A stretch of 64,000 nt of DNA from Acidobacteriota bacterium (GTDB lineage: Bacteria; Acidobacteriota; Vicinamibacteria; Vicinamibacterales; Vicinamibacteraceae): the NCBI GenBank assembly GCA_020845575.1, contig JADLFL010000052.1:1-64000 (forward strand). The letters run 5' to 3'. Positions 8,414 through 13,321 of this stretch are shown here, in pieces. The notes under the pieces were generated by a model. It made no database searches, had not been told where the DNA came from, and worked only from the letters and a program-made list of their open reading frames with translations. Position numbers and translations under genes: made by a program. Position 1 is the stretch's first letter. Every line of letters begins with the position of its first letter.

Positions 8414-9241
8414 ATGGCCTACCATGCCGAGGTCCTGCTCGACAGCGTCAACCCGGCGGGTCAGCGGCTGACGACGTTCGTGCTGCGGTTCCCGCGGTTC
8501 GTGCTGTCGGAGTTCAACACGCACCGCATGTTCTCGCGCAACGCGTCGAGCTCGCGCGCGATTCCCACGACGAAGCTGATGCAGCAGCTCCGCGAGGACC
8601 CCGTCCTGCCGGTGGAATGGGGACGCAACCAGGCGGGGATGCAGGCGCGCGAAGTACTCGATGCCGCCGCCGCGTCGGCCGCCGAAGCCGAGTGGCTTGC
8701 CGCGCGTGACGCGGCGCTCGCGCACGCCGATCGACTCCGCGCCATCGGTGCGCACAAGCAGATCGTCAATCGCGTGCTCGAGCCGTGGATGTGGACGAGC
8801 GTGATCGTGTCGTCCACCACGTACGACAACTTCTTCACGCTGCGCTGCCATCCCGACGCGCAACCCGAGATCAAGCGCCTCGCCGACATGATGCGCGAGC
8901 GCTTCGCGGCGTCGACGCCCGTTCCTCACGCGTCCGGCGAATGGCACCTGCCGTTCATCGGACCTGACGACGAGGTGCTCGCGATCGAGGAGCGCAAGCA
9001 GGTGTCGGTGGCGCGCTGCGCGCGCGTCAGCTACCTGACGCACGTCGGCACGCGCGACATCGACGCCGACATGCGGCTCTATCGCCAGTTGCTCGACGCC
9101 GGACACTGGTCGCCGTTCGAGCATGTTGCCGTTGCGGCGGGCGATGACGCGCGCTTCAACAATTTCAGCGGCTGGCAGGCATATCGCCACCAGATGGAGC
9201 AGGCGCGCACGCTCGTGCTGGGCGAGGTGGCTCCCGCGTGA
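8414..9241 (+). CDS. thyX: Flavin-dependent thymidylate synthase ThyX, variant motif
   Basis: 275 residues. ThyX methylates dUMP to dTMP using methylene-tetrahydrofolate and FAD. The ThyX signature R-H-R-x7-S aligns with THRMFSRNASSS near residue 36, so the first Arg is Thr while His, Arg and Ser are kept; RAIPT follows. The C-terminal half has RYxx-like contacts (SVARCARVSYLTHVG, HWSPFEHVA near 233). The form with NTHRMFSRNASSSRAIP is, from memory, typical of a longer ThyX branch found in phages and some bacteria. A GAGG lies upstream of the ATG. The next gene starts inside its last codons (GTGA). Confidence 0.9.
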   Translation: MAYHAEVLLDSVNPAGQRLTTFVLRFPRFVLSEFNTHRMFSRNASSSRAIPTTKLMQQLREDPVLPVEWGRNQAGMQAREVLDAAAASAAEAEWLAARDAALAHADRLRAIGAHKQIVNRVLEPWMWTSVIVSSTTYDNFFTLRCHPDAQPEIKRLADMMRERFAASTPVPHASGEWHLPFIGPDDEVLAIEERKQVSVARCARVSYLTHVGTRDIDADMRLYRQLLDAGHWSPFEHVAVAAGDDARFNNFSGWQAYRHQMEQARTLVLGEVAPA

Positions 9242-9669
9242 GCACGCGGTCGCCCGGGTTCTCGACCAGCCTTCGCGTGCGATGGGCCGACTGCGACGCG
9301 TTCGGTCACCTCAACAACGCCAGCTACCTCTCGTATTTCGAGGAGGCACGCCTCGACTACTGGAACGCCGTCGTCCCCGACATCCCGTTTCCGGGGATGG
9401 CGCTCGTCCACGCGTCGGTCGATTTCAAGGGACAGGCGTACCCGGGCGACATGCTGACCATTGCTGCGGCGATCACCGAGTTGAAGACAACGAGCTTCTG
9501 GGTGTCGTACGAGGTCAGGCGTGGCGATACCGTCGTGGCCGTGGGCCGGACGGCGCAGCTGTTCTTCGACTACGCGAACCAGACGCCCACGCCGATTCCA
9601 GACGACTTCCGTGCGCGCATCGCCGCGTACGAGGGGATTGCGGCCGGCGGACCCGGTCGCGAGCCGTGA
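9238..9669 (+). CDS. Hotdog-fold acyl-CoA thioesterase (4HBT type)
   Basis: 143 residues. The motif RWADCDAFGHLNNASYLSYFEEAR near residue 14 (split here as RWADCDAFGHLNN and ASYLSYFEEAR) is the Y/W-x-D-x-D-x-x-G-H-x-N-N signature of 4-hydroxybenzoyl-CoA-type thioesterases, with the catalytic Asp present. It would hydrolyse an acyl-CoA; the acyl group is not predictable. GTG 9238 overlaps the thyX stop by four bases, which fixes the start and implies coupling. The short length is normal for the family. Confidence 0.9.
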   Translation: MSTRSPGFSTSLRVRWADCDAFGHLNNASYLSYFEEARLDYWNAVVPDIPFPGMALVHASVDFKGQAYPGDMLTIAAAITELKTTSFWVSYEVRRGDTVVAVGRTAQLFFDYANQTPTPIPDDFRARIAAYEGIAAGGPGREP

Positions 9670-9674
9670 CGCGC

Positions 9675-10079
9675 ATGACACAGGACATCCAGCCAGGCGA
9701 GATCGGGTGGGTCGACCTCACCGTCGACAACGCGACGCAGGTGCGTGACTTCTACAGGGCCGTTGTCGGGTGGGAGTATCGCGACGTGCAGATGGAAGGC
9801 GGCTACGCCGACTACGCGATGACCAACCTCGAAGGCCGCGACGTGACGGGCATCTGTCATGCGAGGGGCATCAACGAGGGCGTTCCGGCGCAATGGCTCG
9901 TGTATTTCACGGTGCTGGATCTGCAGTTCGCCGTCGACGAGACCGTGGCGCGTGGCGGGGCGGTGCTCCGCGGACCGACGGACATGGAGGTGGGCCGATT
10001 CGCCGTGATCCGCGACCCGGCCGGGGCCGTGTGCGCCCTGTTCCAGGCCCCGTCAGGCACGCCGGAAAAAACTCCTTGA
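9675..10079 (+). CDS. VOC (glyoxalase-fold) family protein
   Basis: 134 residues with the paired beta-alpha-beta modules of the vicinal oxygen chelate superfamily: GEIGWVDLTVDNATQVRDFY at the start and GRFAVIRDPAGAVCALFQA at the end, the latter being the common VOC C-terminal strand. The specific reaction is unknown; relatives include glyoxalases, dioxygenases and resistance proteins. ATG 9675 is used; a GTG at 9666 overlapping the thioesterase stop is an alternative. It ends the def-thyX-thioesterase run, and a strong promoter begins within its stop region. Confidence 0.85.
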   Translation: MTQDIQPGEIGWVDLTVDNATQVRDFYRAVVGWEYRDVQMEGGYADYAMTNLEGRDVTGICHARGINEGVPAQWLVYFTVLDLQFAVDETVARGGAVLRGPTDMEVGRFAVIRDPAGAVCALFQAPSGTPEKTP

Positions 10080-10105
10080 CGGCCTTGTGAAAGATTTCAC
10101 ATAAT
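10076..10105 (+). promoter_or_regulatory. Sigma70-like promoter with palindromic operator in the spacer
   Basis: TTGACG (10076-10081), 18 bases, then CATAAT (10100-10105). The spacer and -10 hold an 18-base inverted repeat TTGTGA-AAGATT-TCACAT (10085-10102). Its core TGTGA-N6-TCACA equals the CRP/FNR-superfamily consensus, and the whole also fits the Rex redox-repressor box TTGTGA-N6-TCACAA except for the last base. Lying between -35 and -10, a bound protein would repress. The first plus-strand gene downstream is the MBL hydrolase at 10341, which would have a leader of about 230 bases. Confidence 0.6.
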
Positions 10106-10110
10106 GCGTC

Positions 10111-10290
10111 TCAAGCTGAGGGTCGACGGGCATCCGTTCCAAACACCTTCAAGCCCATCCGGGAAGCGACCTCTTCCGGAAGGGATGGTGAGCCTTCGTA
10201 GTTCAGGCCCGCCTGGTCAAGTACTTCCTCGTAATAATCCTCCATACAGTGCCTGGCGCCCTCAGCTGCTCTTCCTCGCGCCAGCTCCAT
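10111..10290 (-). CDS. Possible small acidic protein, unrecognised
   Basis: 59 residues from ATG 10290 (MELARGRAAEGARHCMEDYY...). The composition is protein-like and acidic in the middle, unlike the Arg-rich shadow frames elsewhere, but GC3 is only about 59 percent against 80-90 percent in neighbouring genes, and no Shine-Dalgarno is visible. It lies antisense to the leader made from the promoter at 10076. It could be a real small gene, possibly acquired, or chance coding in a lower-GC regulatory region. No family is recognised. Confidence 0.35.
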   Translation of the reverse strand: MELARGRAAEGARHCMEDYYEEVLDQAGLNYEGSPSLPEEVASRMGLKVFGTDARRPSA

Positions 10291-10340
10291 CAGCACGCAA
10301 CCATCGCAGGACACTGAACCGCACGACGCGGACGTGATCG

Positions 10341-11141
10341 ATGCGCTACACGCGGCTGACGGCTCCACACGATTCACCATTCGCCCAGGGCTCCGTGCAC
10401 GCGTACCTCGTACACGGTGCCGTGCCCACGCTCGTCGACGCGCCGTCTGCGACGCCCGCGTTCCTGGACGAGATCGCCGATGCGCTCACGGCAGCCGGCG
10501 ACGGTCCGCTCCGGCAGGTGATCGTCACGCACGGCCATCCGGATCACATCGACGGTGCGGCGGGTATCCACGCGCGCTGGCCGCAGGCGGTCTTCCGCAA
10601 GCGCGCGCCGCTGCCTGTTGCCGATGCGATCGCCTGGCAGGTGGTGGAGAAGGAGCCGATGCTCGCCGTTGGCGACACGCAGATGTGGATGATCGCCACG
10701 CCGGGACACGCGCCCGATCATGCGTGCCTGTTCGACGTGCACGAAGGCATCCTGATTGGTGGAGATATCGCGATGAATGGCAGCACCATGGCCATCCCGG
10801 CCGACCATGGCGGCAGCCTGCGCCAGTACATGGCGTCGCTGCACGCCGTACTGGACCTGCAGCCGCGCGTCATCCTGCCCGGCCACGGTGAGCCCATCCT
10901 GCAACCCGCGGCGTTGCTACGTGGCTACATCTCGCACAGGATCGCGCGCGAGCGACAGGTGCTCGAGTGCCTCGCAGCGGGGATTGCGTCGACCGATGCG
11001 ATCGTCGACACGCTGTATGCTGGCCTCGCCGACACCCTGAGACCCGCCGCGCGACAGAACGCGATCGCTCACCTTCGCAAGCTCGAAGAGGACGGCCGCG
11101 TGGCGTGTGCGGGCGATGACTGGCACCTCCGGAGCGCCTGA
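10341..11141 (+). CDS. MBL-fold metallo-hydrolase (LACTB2/glyoxalase II-like)
   Basis: 266 residues. The metal motif H-x-H-x-D-H is [12 protein letters not shown] near residue 64, followed by the second-sphere elements [12 protein letters not shown] near 126, GGDIAMNG near 145 and LPGHGEP near 182, all in the right order for a binuclear metallo-beta-lactamase fold. The C-terminal helical winged part (about 200-266) is typical of the LACTB2 branch. The exact substrate is unknown. The stop overlaps the ATG of the FAH gene by one base. It is the first plus-strand gene after the operator-bearing promoter at 10076. Confidence 0.9.
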
Positions 11142-11968
11142 TGCTGCTGTATCGCACCCCGCAGGGACTCGTCCTGGTCACGGGCGGACGCTCGCTGTCC
11201 CTGCCCACGCTCACGTTCGACGCGCTGCTCCAGGATCCCGATCCGTTCGCGCGGCTCGCATTGCTTGCGACAGACGCCGCTGAAGTCGACGGCGCGACGC
11301 CGCAGGTGATGCTCGCGCCGATCGGATCGCAGGACGTGTGGGCGGCCGGCGTCACGTATTACAGGAGCCGCGACGCGAGGATGGACGAGGCGCGCGAGAG
11401 CGGAGCCGCGACGTTCTACGACCGCGTCTACGAAGCCGAGAGGCCCGAGCTGTTCTTCAAGAGCACGGCGTCCCGCGTGGTGGGGCCCGGCGGCGTGGTG
11501 CGCGTGCGCCGCGACTCGACGTGGTCGGTGCCGGAACCTGAGCTCGTGCTGGTGATCAACGCCGCCGGCACCGTGATCGGGTACACCGTCGGCAACGACA
11601 TGAGCGCGCGCGACATCGAGGGCGAGAATCCGCTGTACCTGCCGCAGGCCAAGATGTACGACGGCAGCTGCGCCATCGGTCCGGCGGTGCTCGTCACGCC
11701 GCGTCCGCTGGACGCGAGTACCGCGATCGGGCTCCGCATCACGCGTGACGGTCGCGTCGCGTTCGACGGCGAGACGACGACAGGACGGATCAAGCGCGGC
11801 TTCGCCGAACTGGTGGGCTGGCTCCGGCGCGAGACGACGTTTTCAGTGGGCGTCTACCTGTTCACCGGCACGGGCATCGTGCCGCCCGACGACTTCACGC
11901 TCGCCAGCGGCGACGAGATCGCCATCACGATCGACGGCATCGGCACCTTGGTCAACGTCGTGGAGTGA
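11141..11968 (+). CDS. Fumarylacetoacetate hydrolase (FAH) family protein
   Basis: 275 residues. The C-terminal FAH fold is shown by the metal-ligand run PEPELVLVI near residue 132, [17 protein letters not shown] near 147 and [11 protein letters not shown] near 168. Family members cleave or dehydrate 2-keto acids. The distinct N-terminus ([14 protein letters not shown]) and length recall the sugar-acid dehydratase branch (2-dehydro-3-deoxy-arabinonate dehydratase), but this is a resemblance only. Coupled to the upstream MBL hydrolase, so the two may act on one catabolic route. Confidence 0.85.
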
Positions 11969-11999
11969 CGGGCCGCGGGGAGGATGCCAGGCCCGTGGA

Positions 12000-12419
12000 T
12001 CAGGCGTCGGCTGCGCGGGCGGCGCTGCCCGCACGCGTGGTGGTGATCAACGCTTCCATGTGGCCCAGGTATCGTTCGAGCGCCACGCGGCCGGCGCGCG
12101 TCAGGACGTACTCGCTGCGCGGCAGGCGCCCTTCGAAGGTCTTCGTGCAGGCGATGTAGCCCGCGTCCTCGAGCTTGCGCGCGTGCACGCTGAGGTTGCC
12201 GTCGGTGGTGCGCAGCAGGATCTTCAGGTCGTTGAACGACAGCTTTTCCTGCACCGCGAGCGTGCTCACGATCGCCAGGCGCAGGCGCTCGTGAATCAGC
12301 TTGTCGAGGTTCAACGGAGACGAAGGGTCGGCATGTGAATCGATCGACCGCACTCGCGGTCGAAAACCACGCAACCGGCCCACAGGCACATCGTCCTGTG
12401 TCCTGAGACGTTCTGTCAT
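12000..12419 (-). CDS. Winged-helix transcriptional regulator
   Basis: 139 residues from ATG 12419; longer starts exist to 12479. The domain (about 38-115) reads LNLDKLIHERLRLAIVSTLA, then LSFNDLKILLRTTDGNLSVH with the recognition helix, and a wing around RLPRSEYVLTRAG. This is the HTH_34/ArsR-like single-domain type that controls a few nearby genes. No metal-binding Cys pair is seen; the single Cys is in the wing. Divergent from the rhodanese gene with 68 bases between starts, which makes rhodanese or its own promoter the likeliest target. Confidence 0.85.
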   Translation of the reverse strand: MTERLRTQDDVPVGRLRGFRPRVRSIDSHADPSSPLNLDKLIHERLRLAIVSTLAVQEKLSFNDLKILLRTTDGNLSVHARKLEDAGYIACTKTFEGRLPRSEYVLTRAGRVALERYLGHMEALITTTRAGSAARAADA

Positions 12420-12474
12420 GGGCATCCGGCGGAAACGCCCGCCGCCTGCATCGTACGCTGCTGTCGCATCCGCA

Positions 12475-12480
12475 TACAAT
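12475..12480 (+). promoter_or_regulatory. -10-like TACAAT, leaderless start of rhodanese
   Basis: TACAAT ends 7 bases before the ATG at 12488, so the transcript should start at the start codon. No Shine-Dalgarno is present. Confidence 0.5.
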
Positions 12481-12487
12481 CACCCGT

Positions 12488-13321
12488 ATGGCCGGCAACC
12501 CGAAGGGCTACGCCAACCCAGACCTCCTGATCGAGGCCGACGACCTGGCCGCCGCGCTCGACGGCCCTGACGCGCCGCTCGTGCTGGATCTGCGTCCTGC
12601 CGAGGCGTATGCCGCGGGTCACGTGCCGACGGCCGTCCATCTCGACCTCTTCGGCATCAGCCTGATCGACACCGACCCCGCGCCCCTGCGCGCGTTCCTC
12701 TGGATCCTGGAGCACCTGCTCGCATCACGCGGTGTCTCTGCCGACCGTCCCGTCGTGGTGTACGACGAGCACTCTGGCATGCGCGCGGCGCGTGCGTTCT
12801 GGGCACTGGAATACTTCGGGCACACGCAGACGCGCCTGTTCGACGGCGGTTTCGGGGCGTGGCGGGCGGGCGGTCATTCCGTGAGCCTGGAACCCGTGTC
12901 GCCGAAGTCGACCACGTGGACGGGTGTGCCCGTGGACGACAGGATGGCCTCGTATCGCGACGTGCTGGCACGACTCGATGCCGCCGACGCCGTGGTCCTC
13001 GACACGCGCTCCGACGGCGAGTATCACGGCACGCTGGTGCGCGCTGCGCGTGGCGGTCGCGTCCCTGGCGCCGTGCACGTCGAGTGGACCACCAACCTCC
13101 GCCCCGACGGCTCGTTCAAGAGCGCCGACCAACTGCGCGCGATGTACGAACCCGCAGGCGTGACGCCGGACAAGGAAGTGTTCACGTACTGCCAGGGCGG
13201 CTACCGCGCCGCACACGGTTACCTGGCGCTCCGTCTCCTGGGCTACCCTCGCGTCCGTAACTACGTCGGATCCTGGAAGGAATGGGGCGACCGCCTCGAA
13301 CTCCCTGTGGAGGTCGACTGA
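12488..13321 (+). CDS. Thiosulfate/3-mercaptopyruvate sulfurtransferase (tandem rhodanese)
   Basis: 277 residues with two rhodanese domains. The C-terminal one has the active-site loop TYCQGGYRAAH near residue 238 with the persulfide-bearing Cys. The N-terminal one (about 15-140) has VYDEHSGMRAARAFW at the same place and no Cys, as usual for the structural domain. It transfers sulfur from thiosulfate or mercaptopyruvate to an acceptor such as cyanide or thioredoxin. It is likely cytoplasmic, as no signal peptide is seen. Translation of the M20 gene begins 5 bases after its stop, suggesting an operon. Confidence 0.92.
   Translation: MAGNPKGYANPDLLIEADDLAAALDGPDAPLVLDLRPAEAYAAGHVPTAVHLDLFGISLIDTDPAPLRAFLWILEHLLASRGVSADRPVVVYDEHSGMRAARAFWALEYFGHTQTRLFDGGFGAWRAGGHSVSLEPVSPKSTTWTGVPVDDRMASYRDVLARLDAADAVVLDTRSDGEYHGTLVRAARGGRVPGAVHVEWTTNLRPDGSFKSADQLRAMYEPAGVTPDKEVFTYCQGGYRAAHGYLALRLLGYPRVRNYVGSWKEWGDRLELPVEVD

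Follow-up and report, generated by a model that had tools for sequence, protein, structure and literature searches.

What would be transcribed from a promoter whose spacer is occupied by an inverted repeat, and which regulator would sit on that repeat? The question is raised by positions 10076–10105 of the window, the 64,000-nt stretch of Acidobacteriota DNA analyzed here. The original prediction described a promoter (TTGACG, 18 bases, CATAAT) enclosing a repeat that fits the CRP/FNR core exactly and the Rex box with one end base off, and had it control an MBL-fold/FAA_hydrolase gene pair through a leader "or an RNA."

Promoter and Operator

On the forward strand, the −35 hexamer TTGACG (10076–10081) overlaps the stop codon of the 5′ neighbor, a glyoxalase-like gene (9675–10079), and is followed after 18 bases of window sequence by the −10 hexamer CATAAT (10100–10105). 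Between them lies TTGTGAAAGATTTCACAT (10085–10102), a Rex-type operator of the form TTGTGAA-N4-TTCACA, recognized from the sequence and from order-wide pattern searches, which shares bases with the −10 hexamer and ends, at this merger, in T instead of A. The hexamers were located by sequence and by a promoter scan of 9000–13000, in which 10076–10105 was the single site while shuffles lead to an expectation of 0.3; moreover, TTGAC stands at a near-fixed distance 5′ of the operator in relatives. Promoter and repeat, including the exact fit to the CRP/FNR core and the one deviating end base of the Rex box, are thus confirmed at the level of sequence.

In the 4.57 Mb genome, the string TTGTGA-N6-TCACAT has a single occurrence and its control has none. 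Within the window, TGTGA-N6-TCACA with at most one mismatch also occurs once, an exact match, against a shuffle mean of 1.18; this count alone is not unusual. The evidence that decides against a chance origin of the promoter-operator arrangement is comparative, resting on sequences across genomes. Region 10076–10105 is best read as a sigma-70-type promoter with a spacer filled by a predicted Rex operator, and we put the probability of the whole explanation, including the RNA leader described below, at about 0.7.

Recurrence in the Order

The pattern TTGACN{3,6}TGTGAN6TCACA, which leaves six inner operator bases free, matches at 76 places spread over 54 of the order's 162 genomes (counting the own genome), and its reversed-pattern control matches in none of the 162. 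TTGAC and TGTGA are separated by four bases at 42 places and by five at 33, together 75 of 76, the exception (G038:C37) probably being due to chance. The inner bases left free in the search turned out to be nearly fixed, with TGTGAA at 76/76 and TTCACA at 74/76 places. A second search, which included the −10 hexamer and allowed one mismatch, returned 77 places in 55/162 genomes and no controls. The operator-only pattern with at most one mismatch matched in 145/162 genomes and its control in 11/162, each palindromic site being given on both strands. At the promoter-type sites, the operator occupies the −35/−10 spacer, as had been proposed for the window, and its right end is mostly CACAT, merging with the −10 hexamer.

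The first downstream tblastn match at the 77 promoter-type places is a multihaem cytochrome (31), a LolA-like protein (20), an ABC ATPase (11), an MBL protein (10) or a rhodanese (1), with none of the queries matching at the remaining four. The cytochrome and a following molybdopterin gene are both present at 30 of the 77. In one example each, the cytochrome gene corresponds to PF14522 and the TAT-variant molybdopterin protein to TIGR04519; we take the pair to be ActA/ActB of alternative complex III (ACIII), the nearest named NCBIfam models being QrcA/QrcB, below cut-off. This ACIII-type cytochrome operon is preceded by the operator in the window's genus and in others, and the box leading it (L141 and 30 further loci) is the commonest of the promoter type. 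In family f5 (L095–L102, L104, L070, and L063), the box lies directly 5′ of the ABC ATPase gene and not of lolA-MMPL, and an FtsX/MacB-like permease comes next where read.

Among the matches listed for families f15 and f5 (28 loci, L272–L299), operator sites lie 5′ of nuoA, atpB, atpH, and nadA, whose protein families were confirmed on one example each (PF00507, PF00119, PF00213, and PF02445, respectively). These nuo, atp, and nadA sites are known from relatives in the two families, not from the own genome. In the window's genus (G001–G004), the located sites are the cytochrome and RNA promoters only, and a search of the own genome at up to one mismatch revealed no second operator site; its sites at up to two mismatches lie, by eye, within coding sequence and look like chance occurrences. 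In relatives, then, the box does precede respiration genes (nuoA, atp, and the ACIII-type operon), and in the own genome the window site stands alone at up to one mismatch.

Rex as the Probable Regulator

It is very probable that the redox-sensing repressor Rex docks at the box in the promoter. An excerpt of the Staphylococcus aureus study gives the Rex operator consensus as TTGTGAAW4TTCACAA (PMC2883068), and one on Streptomyces avermitilis gives TTGTGAANNNNTTCACAA, with atp and nuo among the targets and, at nuoA1 and atpI, an operator that lies in the −35/−10 interval and extends to the −35 element (PMC5355995). The sites of the order resemble these in sequence, in targets (nuoA and atp genes in families f15 and f5), and, at the promoter-type places, in position, which upholds, from sequence data, the Rex-type operator and the placement in the spacer that were originally suggested.

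Both candidate regulators had been named, and genes for both are encoded in the own genome. Its Rex, encoded on C41, is clear: a profile search finds the domains PF06971 and PF02629, the protein scores 234 bits against NF003995 (cut-off 126), and it matches the PDB Rex structure 3ikv with an E-value of 5e-44. In addition, three Crp-type helix-turn-helix proteins exceed the Pfam cut-off, one of them, by eye, beside nos-like genes. Together with the exact match to the CRP core TGTGA-N6-TCACA, these proteins would allow a CRP/FNR-family regulator to repress from the spacer. We regard this reading as improbable. The inner A found at 76/76 and the inner TT found at 74/76 promoter-type sites are a requirement of Rex, not of CRP, and some sites of the order precede nuoA, atp, and nadA genes. 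Furthermore, the Crp-type recognition helices (TLYTVSR, TIETCIR, and TIETAIR, by eye) lack the RETVGR of the E. coli CRP recognition helix. Rex is strongly favored over CRP/FNR because of the fixed inner bases, the targets in the order, and the Rex gene in the genome.

The distribution of Rex itself contributes little, as the protein was found in 138 of the 162 genomes, including families devoid of the promoter-type box, so that co-occurrence of Rex and box barely discriminates. The site is absent in 7 of 24 Rex-less genomes as opposed to 10 of 138 with Rex (Fisher p 0.005), a comparison in which four members of the Rex-less set were assigned by subtraction and which is confounded by genome incompleteness. 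Four genomes have the box and no Rex match (G017, G065, G068, and G083; completeness 81–88%). No exact TTGTGA-N6-TCACA was found near rex at 30 rex loci across the order or at the own rex locus, where 297 bases of contig precede the domain match.

A Conserved Structured RNA Downstream of the Promoter

The promoter is followed by a conserved structured RNA element, a leader or a small RNA, at 10112–10267 (forward strand), as indicated by conservation, a covariance model, and covariation. Its 5′ end was placed from the −10 hexamer, and the match to the covariance model (R1) spans 10120–10262 with an E-value of 8.5e-18, the window copy being part of the training set. The ends of the element pair in a closing stem, P1, with its 5′ arm at 10114–10133 (AGCTGAGGG..CG..CGGGCAT) and its 3′ arm at 10249–10267 (GTGCCTGGCGCCCTCAGCT); the stem emerges from the fold and from covariation, which for the 5′ arm concerns the core. 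Enclosed by P1 are an inner GC-rich hairpin, P2 (10154–10184), predicted in the fold of the window copy, with a hairpin in this region discernible by eye in many of 24 single-sequence folds, and a pyrimidine-rich segment (10210–10248) evident in the alignments, which precedes the 3′ arm and contains TTCCTC and TCCTCC, resembling the 16S anti-Shine-Dalgarno core.

When the upstream regions of MBL relatives are aligned, similarity continues beyond the promoter. A search of 60 genomes (own included) with 10070–10330 found the region in each of the four remaining members of the genus, the matches covering 10075–10267 in two of them and reaching a little beyond in the others. Identity over 10112–10267 amounts to 90, 84, 77, and 89%, compared with 70–80% for the four flanking genes, the margin of the RNA over the FAA_hydrolase gene being less than one point in G003. 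The 73-nt spacer 3′ of 10267 finds no match in the same-genus genomes. Short matches to the leader DNA in five genomes outside the genus comprise the box and the start of the RNA in G011, G042, and G052, one of the two in G052 being the cytochrome promoter. Two further places (L046, G023:C59:4110-4144; L050, G033:C304:1346-1382) match only the 3′ part of the leader (window 10249–10297) at 85–94% and differ in position from the RNA copies of the same two genomes.

In other families, the same promoter is followed by a different sequence with a common fold: paired ends (P1), a GC-rich hairpin, and a pyrimidine-rich segment. Model R1 identifies 26 copies, one each in 26 of the 162 genomes and 24 of them from the training set; under the stricter filters used, at least 26 genomes thus carry the RNA. 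In the 24 copies, the P1 core is paired at 90.6%, and 10 of its 13 pairs have changed on both sides. Over all 26 copies, pairing reaches 91.3% compared with at most 58.8% in slid controls, and cells with double changes number 65 as opposed to 23.1 in shuffles, one of the alignments used having been trimmed to the stem ends and another fitted to the stem, which favors P1. The number of further pair types in P1 is not above shuffles (106/500 as high). RNAalifold had returned no pairs on the first 24-row alignment, apparently with the 5′ arms one column out of register, after which the rows were trimmed to the stem ends and realigned. G059 and G015, whose copies did not belong to the training set, serve as a check on this bias, each showing 13/13 P1 pairs. 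A second box in G052 (L051/L131), part of the first alignment, was dropped from the RNA set since it leads the cytochrome gene. Judged from this covariation, the closing stem P1 is maintained by compensatory changes across 26 genomes.

Considered alone, the window copy folds moderately better than its shuffles (z −1.9, 6/200 as good). Two core positions of its P1 are mismatched, and within the window's genus the core stem, taken alone, does not stand out from shuffled arms, of which 12 to 65 in 300 were as good. Directly after the P1 core the RNA is richer in T, with a mean of 5.4 in the first 14 nt compared with 2.0 in nt 21–34 over the 26 copies; this holds for 22/26 copies, three having fewer. 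A terminator scan of the window copy gave no terminator-like site near 10267.

The copies in G059 (L246, C22:3823-3956) and G015 (L250, C30:12784-12914) retain the RNA together with a TTGACA promoter and are devoid of the operator. By sequence comparison, the absence of the operator in this one lineage would be a natural escape from the regulator, with the RNA as the more constant part there. A copy in family f2 (G102:C25, L136/L239) is very similar in both RNA and lolA to family f10, possibly as a result of transfer or misbinning.

Candidate Identities of the RNA

Searches against Rfam (release 15), which holds an RsaE family, gave no match at E-values up to 1 either for the element in the window or for the element at 20 of the 26 RNA loci, RoxS/RsaE included. 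Among those 20 loci, Rfam gave one match, asX3 in L236, which stays under its gathering score and falls outside the element. The element is similar to 6S RNA in length and in having a long closing stem with a large bulged interior. The housekeeping 6S RNA is, however, a separate gene in the same genomes: an RF00013 match above the gathering score occurs in 39/40 genomes, in the own genome at C24:50166-50351, and none falls on the element. That the element is a 6S RNA has next to no chance of being correct, and an identity with the housekeeping 6S RNA is already refuted by these matches.

Small open reading frames of the leader (89 aa on the minus and 77 aa on the plus strand) have no Pfam match, and the plus-strand frame is broken by single-base indels in relatives. 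A protein encoded within 10112–10267 is disfavored because of these indels. A leader is favored over a free sRNA gene with random neighbors, given the same-strand neighbors and the lolA-MMPL operon.

Downstream Genes and Operon Context

The first gene downstream encodes an MBL-fold hydrolase with a BLACT_WH domain (10341–11141, forward strand; PF00753 and PF17778), which was matched in 36/40 genomes (own included). An FAA_hydrolase-family protein follows (11141–11968, forward strand; PF01557); its start shares one base with the MBL stop, and the two genes are presumably co-transcribed. The FAA_hydrolase gene is convergent with a winged-helix regulator gene (HTH_34; 12000–12479, reverse strand), which is 83–89% identical and occupies the same place in the four same-genus genomes.

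Among the 26 RNA copies, the next gene is MBL in 13 (including G093, counted on a weak match at a contig end), and LolA-like in 11; G091 has a rhodanese there and G044 an AMP-ligase. The downstream gene lies on the strand of the RNA in all 26. The suggested leader proved to be a conserved structured RNA with same-strand genes downstream. G002, G004, G025, and G095 share the order RNA, LolA-like, MMPL, room for one gene, and MBL, the intervening gene being DUF1302-like where scanned (G004 and G025). Compared with this arrangement, the window locus appears to have shed LolA-MMPL-DUF1302 while the RNA stayed. The box of G029 and that of G106 lie directly 5′ of the LolA-like gene with no RNA match. 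Additional elements between RNA and MBL include an extra GC-rich hairpin in G006 (L149) and G042 (L105), with a T-run in G006, and a short repeat in G008 (L256).

Since the lolA reading frame extends through the 3′ part of the RNA, its second half, in the 11 copies with lolA next, the element might be the 5′ end of the lolA-like gene, consisting of a leader plus signal-peptide codons, and the window copy a relic of a deletion of lolA-MMPL-DUF1302. The frame is indeed signal-peptide-like in family f10 (MSRL..FLI.LFLN), and lolA-MMPL is still present between RNA and MBL in G002 and G004. In these same two genomes, however, the sole in-frame ATG before or within the RNA lies in the −10 hexamer, leaving an inner GTG as a possible start. 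Furthermore, of the 13 copies followed by MBL, 10 have the first 10 P1 pairs intact, and 8/10 are preserved in the three MBL-next copies of the window's genus. The window RNA is 90% identical to that of the lolA-free G001 while the spacer that follows finds no match, and single-base indels between the two break the frame. We therefore consider a lolA origin quite unlikely and retain the reading of a structured RNA leader.

Proposed Mechanism

At high NAD+, Rex would occupy 10085–10102 and block RNA polymerase. A rise in NADH under limitation of oxygen or another acceptor would release Rex, and transcription would start near 10112. The transcript would open with the conserved RNA of about 155 nt, closed by the long stem P1, and run on into MBL-FAH or, in some relatives, into lolA-like, MMPL, DUF1302, and MBL genes. 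It is this model as a whole, combining a Rex-filled promoter spacer, relief by NADH, and a structured RNA leader into MBL-FAH, that carries the probability of about 0.7 given above. Its individual parts draw on different sources: promoter, operator type, kinds of targets, and the conserved RNA with its stem on comparison across genomes, relief by NADH on analogy with known Rex systems, and a transcript that starts at about 10112 and passes through the RNA to MBL-FAH on the anatomy of the locus. We infer that Rex itself binds the operator, that the promoter is active, and that control is by repression; the RNA may in turn act on expression.

In the working model, the RNA is a leader that would limit read-through, because P1 and the T-richer stretch behind it resemble an intrinsic terminator; it may also be freed as a small RNA. 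A role of P1 and the T-richer stretch as a leaky terminator or as a source of small RNA is speculative. Alternatively, the element could be a trans-acting small RNA like RoxS which happens to lie upstream of an operon. Its persistence beside four different downstream genes, the pyrimidine-rich segment with TTCCTC and TCCTCC, the T enrichment after P1 in 22/26 copies, and, by eye, the GC hairpin and T-run before MBL in G006 would suit such an RNA, and an excerpt on Bacillus subtilis RoxS documents a Rex-repressed sRNA (PMC5419742). A same-strand downstream gene in 26/26 copies, many of which are related by descent, is expected of a leader, and the scan of the window copy detected nothing terminator-like near 10267. 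A purely trans-acting RNA thus appears rather unlikely, and the leader remains our preferred reading.

Discussion and Comparison With Known Systems

The data provide a first predicted Rex target set for an Acidobacteriota order, comprising complex I, ATP synthase, and NAD synthesis in some families and an ACIII-type complex in many. No paper on Rex targets or on the RNA element in this order was found in the open-licence literature. The operator belongs to a known kind, that of Rex operators, and what is new is its combination with an RNA unmatched in Rfam, for which there is now a covariance model as well as a clear hypothesis on its regulator. It is tempting, if still on the doubtful side of even, to go further and propose a new class of structured RNA, present in one Acidobacteriota order and under Rex control, which would itself be a regulator (a riboswitch-like attenuator or a trans-acting sRNA) and tie the NADH/NAD+ state to an envelope-transport/MBL operon, alongside Rex-controlled respiratory complexes. 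Should the RNA prove to be regulatory, it would add another example of a regulatory RNA under the control of Rex, here one without an Rfam match to RoxS.

The closest parallel for the promoter is found in the Rex operators of Streptomyces at nuoA1 and atpI, which, as far as the excerpted study describes them, have the consensus TTGTGAANNNNTTCACAA, the nuo and atp targets, and the −35/−10 position in common with those described here (PMC5355995). Unlike these, the operators of the present order also precede an ACIII-type operon and a structured RNA. The RNA, in turn, resembles structured mRNA leaders such as riboswitches and attenuators in its conserved fold, its 5′ position, the T-richer stretch after the stem, and the occurrence of several different same-strand genes downstream, and differs from known ones in having no Rfam match.

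For a Rex-repressed RNA promoter, the closest precedent is RoxS/RsaE of Bacillus and Staphylococcus. The available part of the B. subtilis study reports that the RoxS promoter is repressed by Rex from a site just downstream of the transcription start, whereas the operator described here, where repression is predicted, lies in the −35/−10 spacer (PMC5419742). A further difference from RoxS/RsaE is that the element lacks an Rfam match and lies on the operon strand in 26/26 copies. Among the features of RsaE are C-rich motifs. Pyrimidine-rich segments are thus common to RsaE and to the element.
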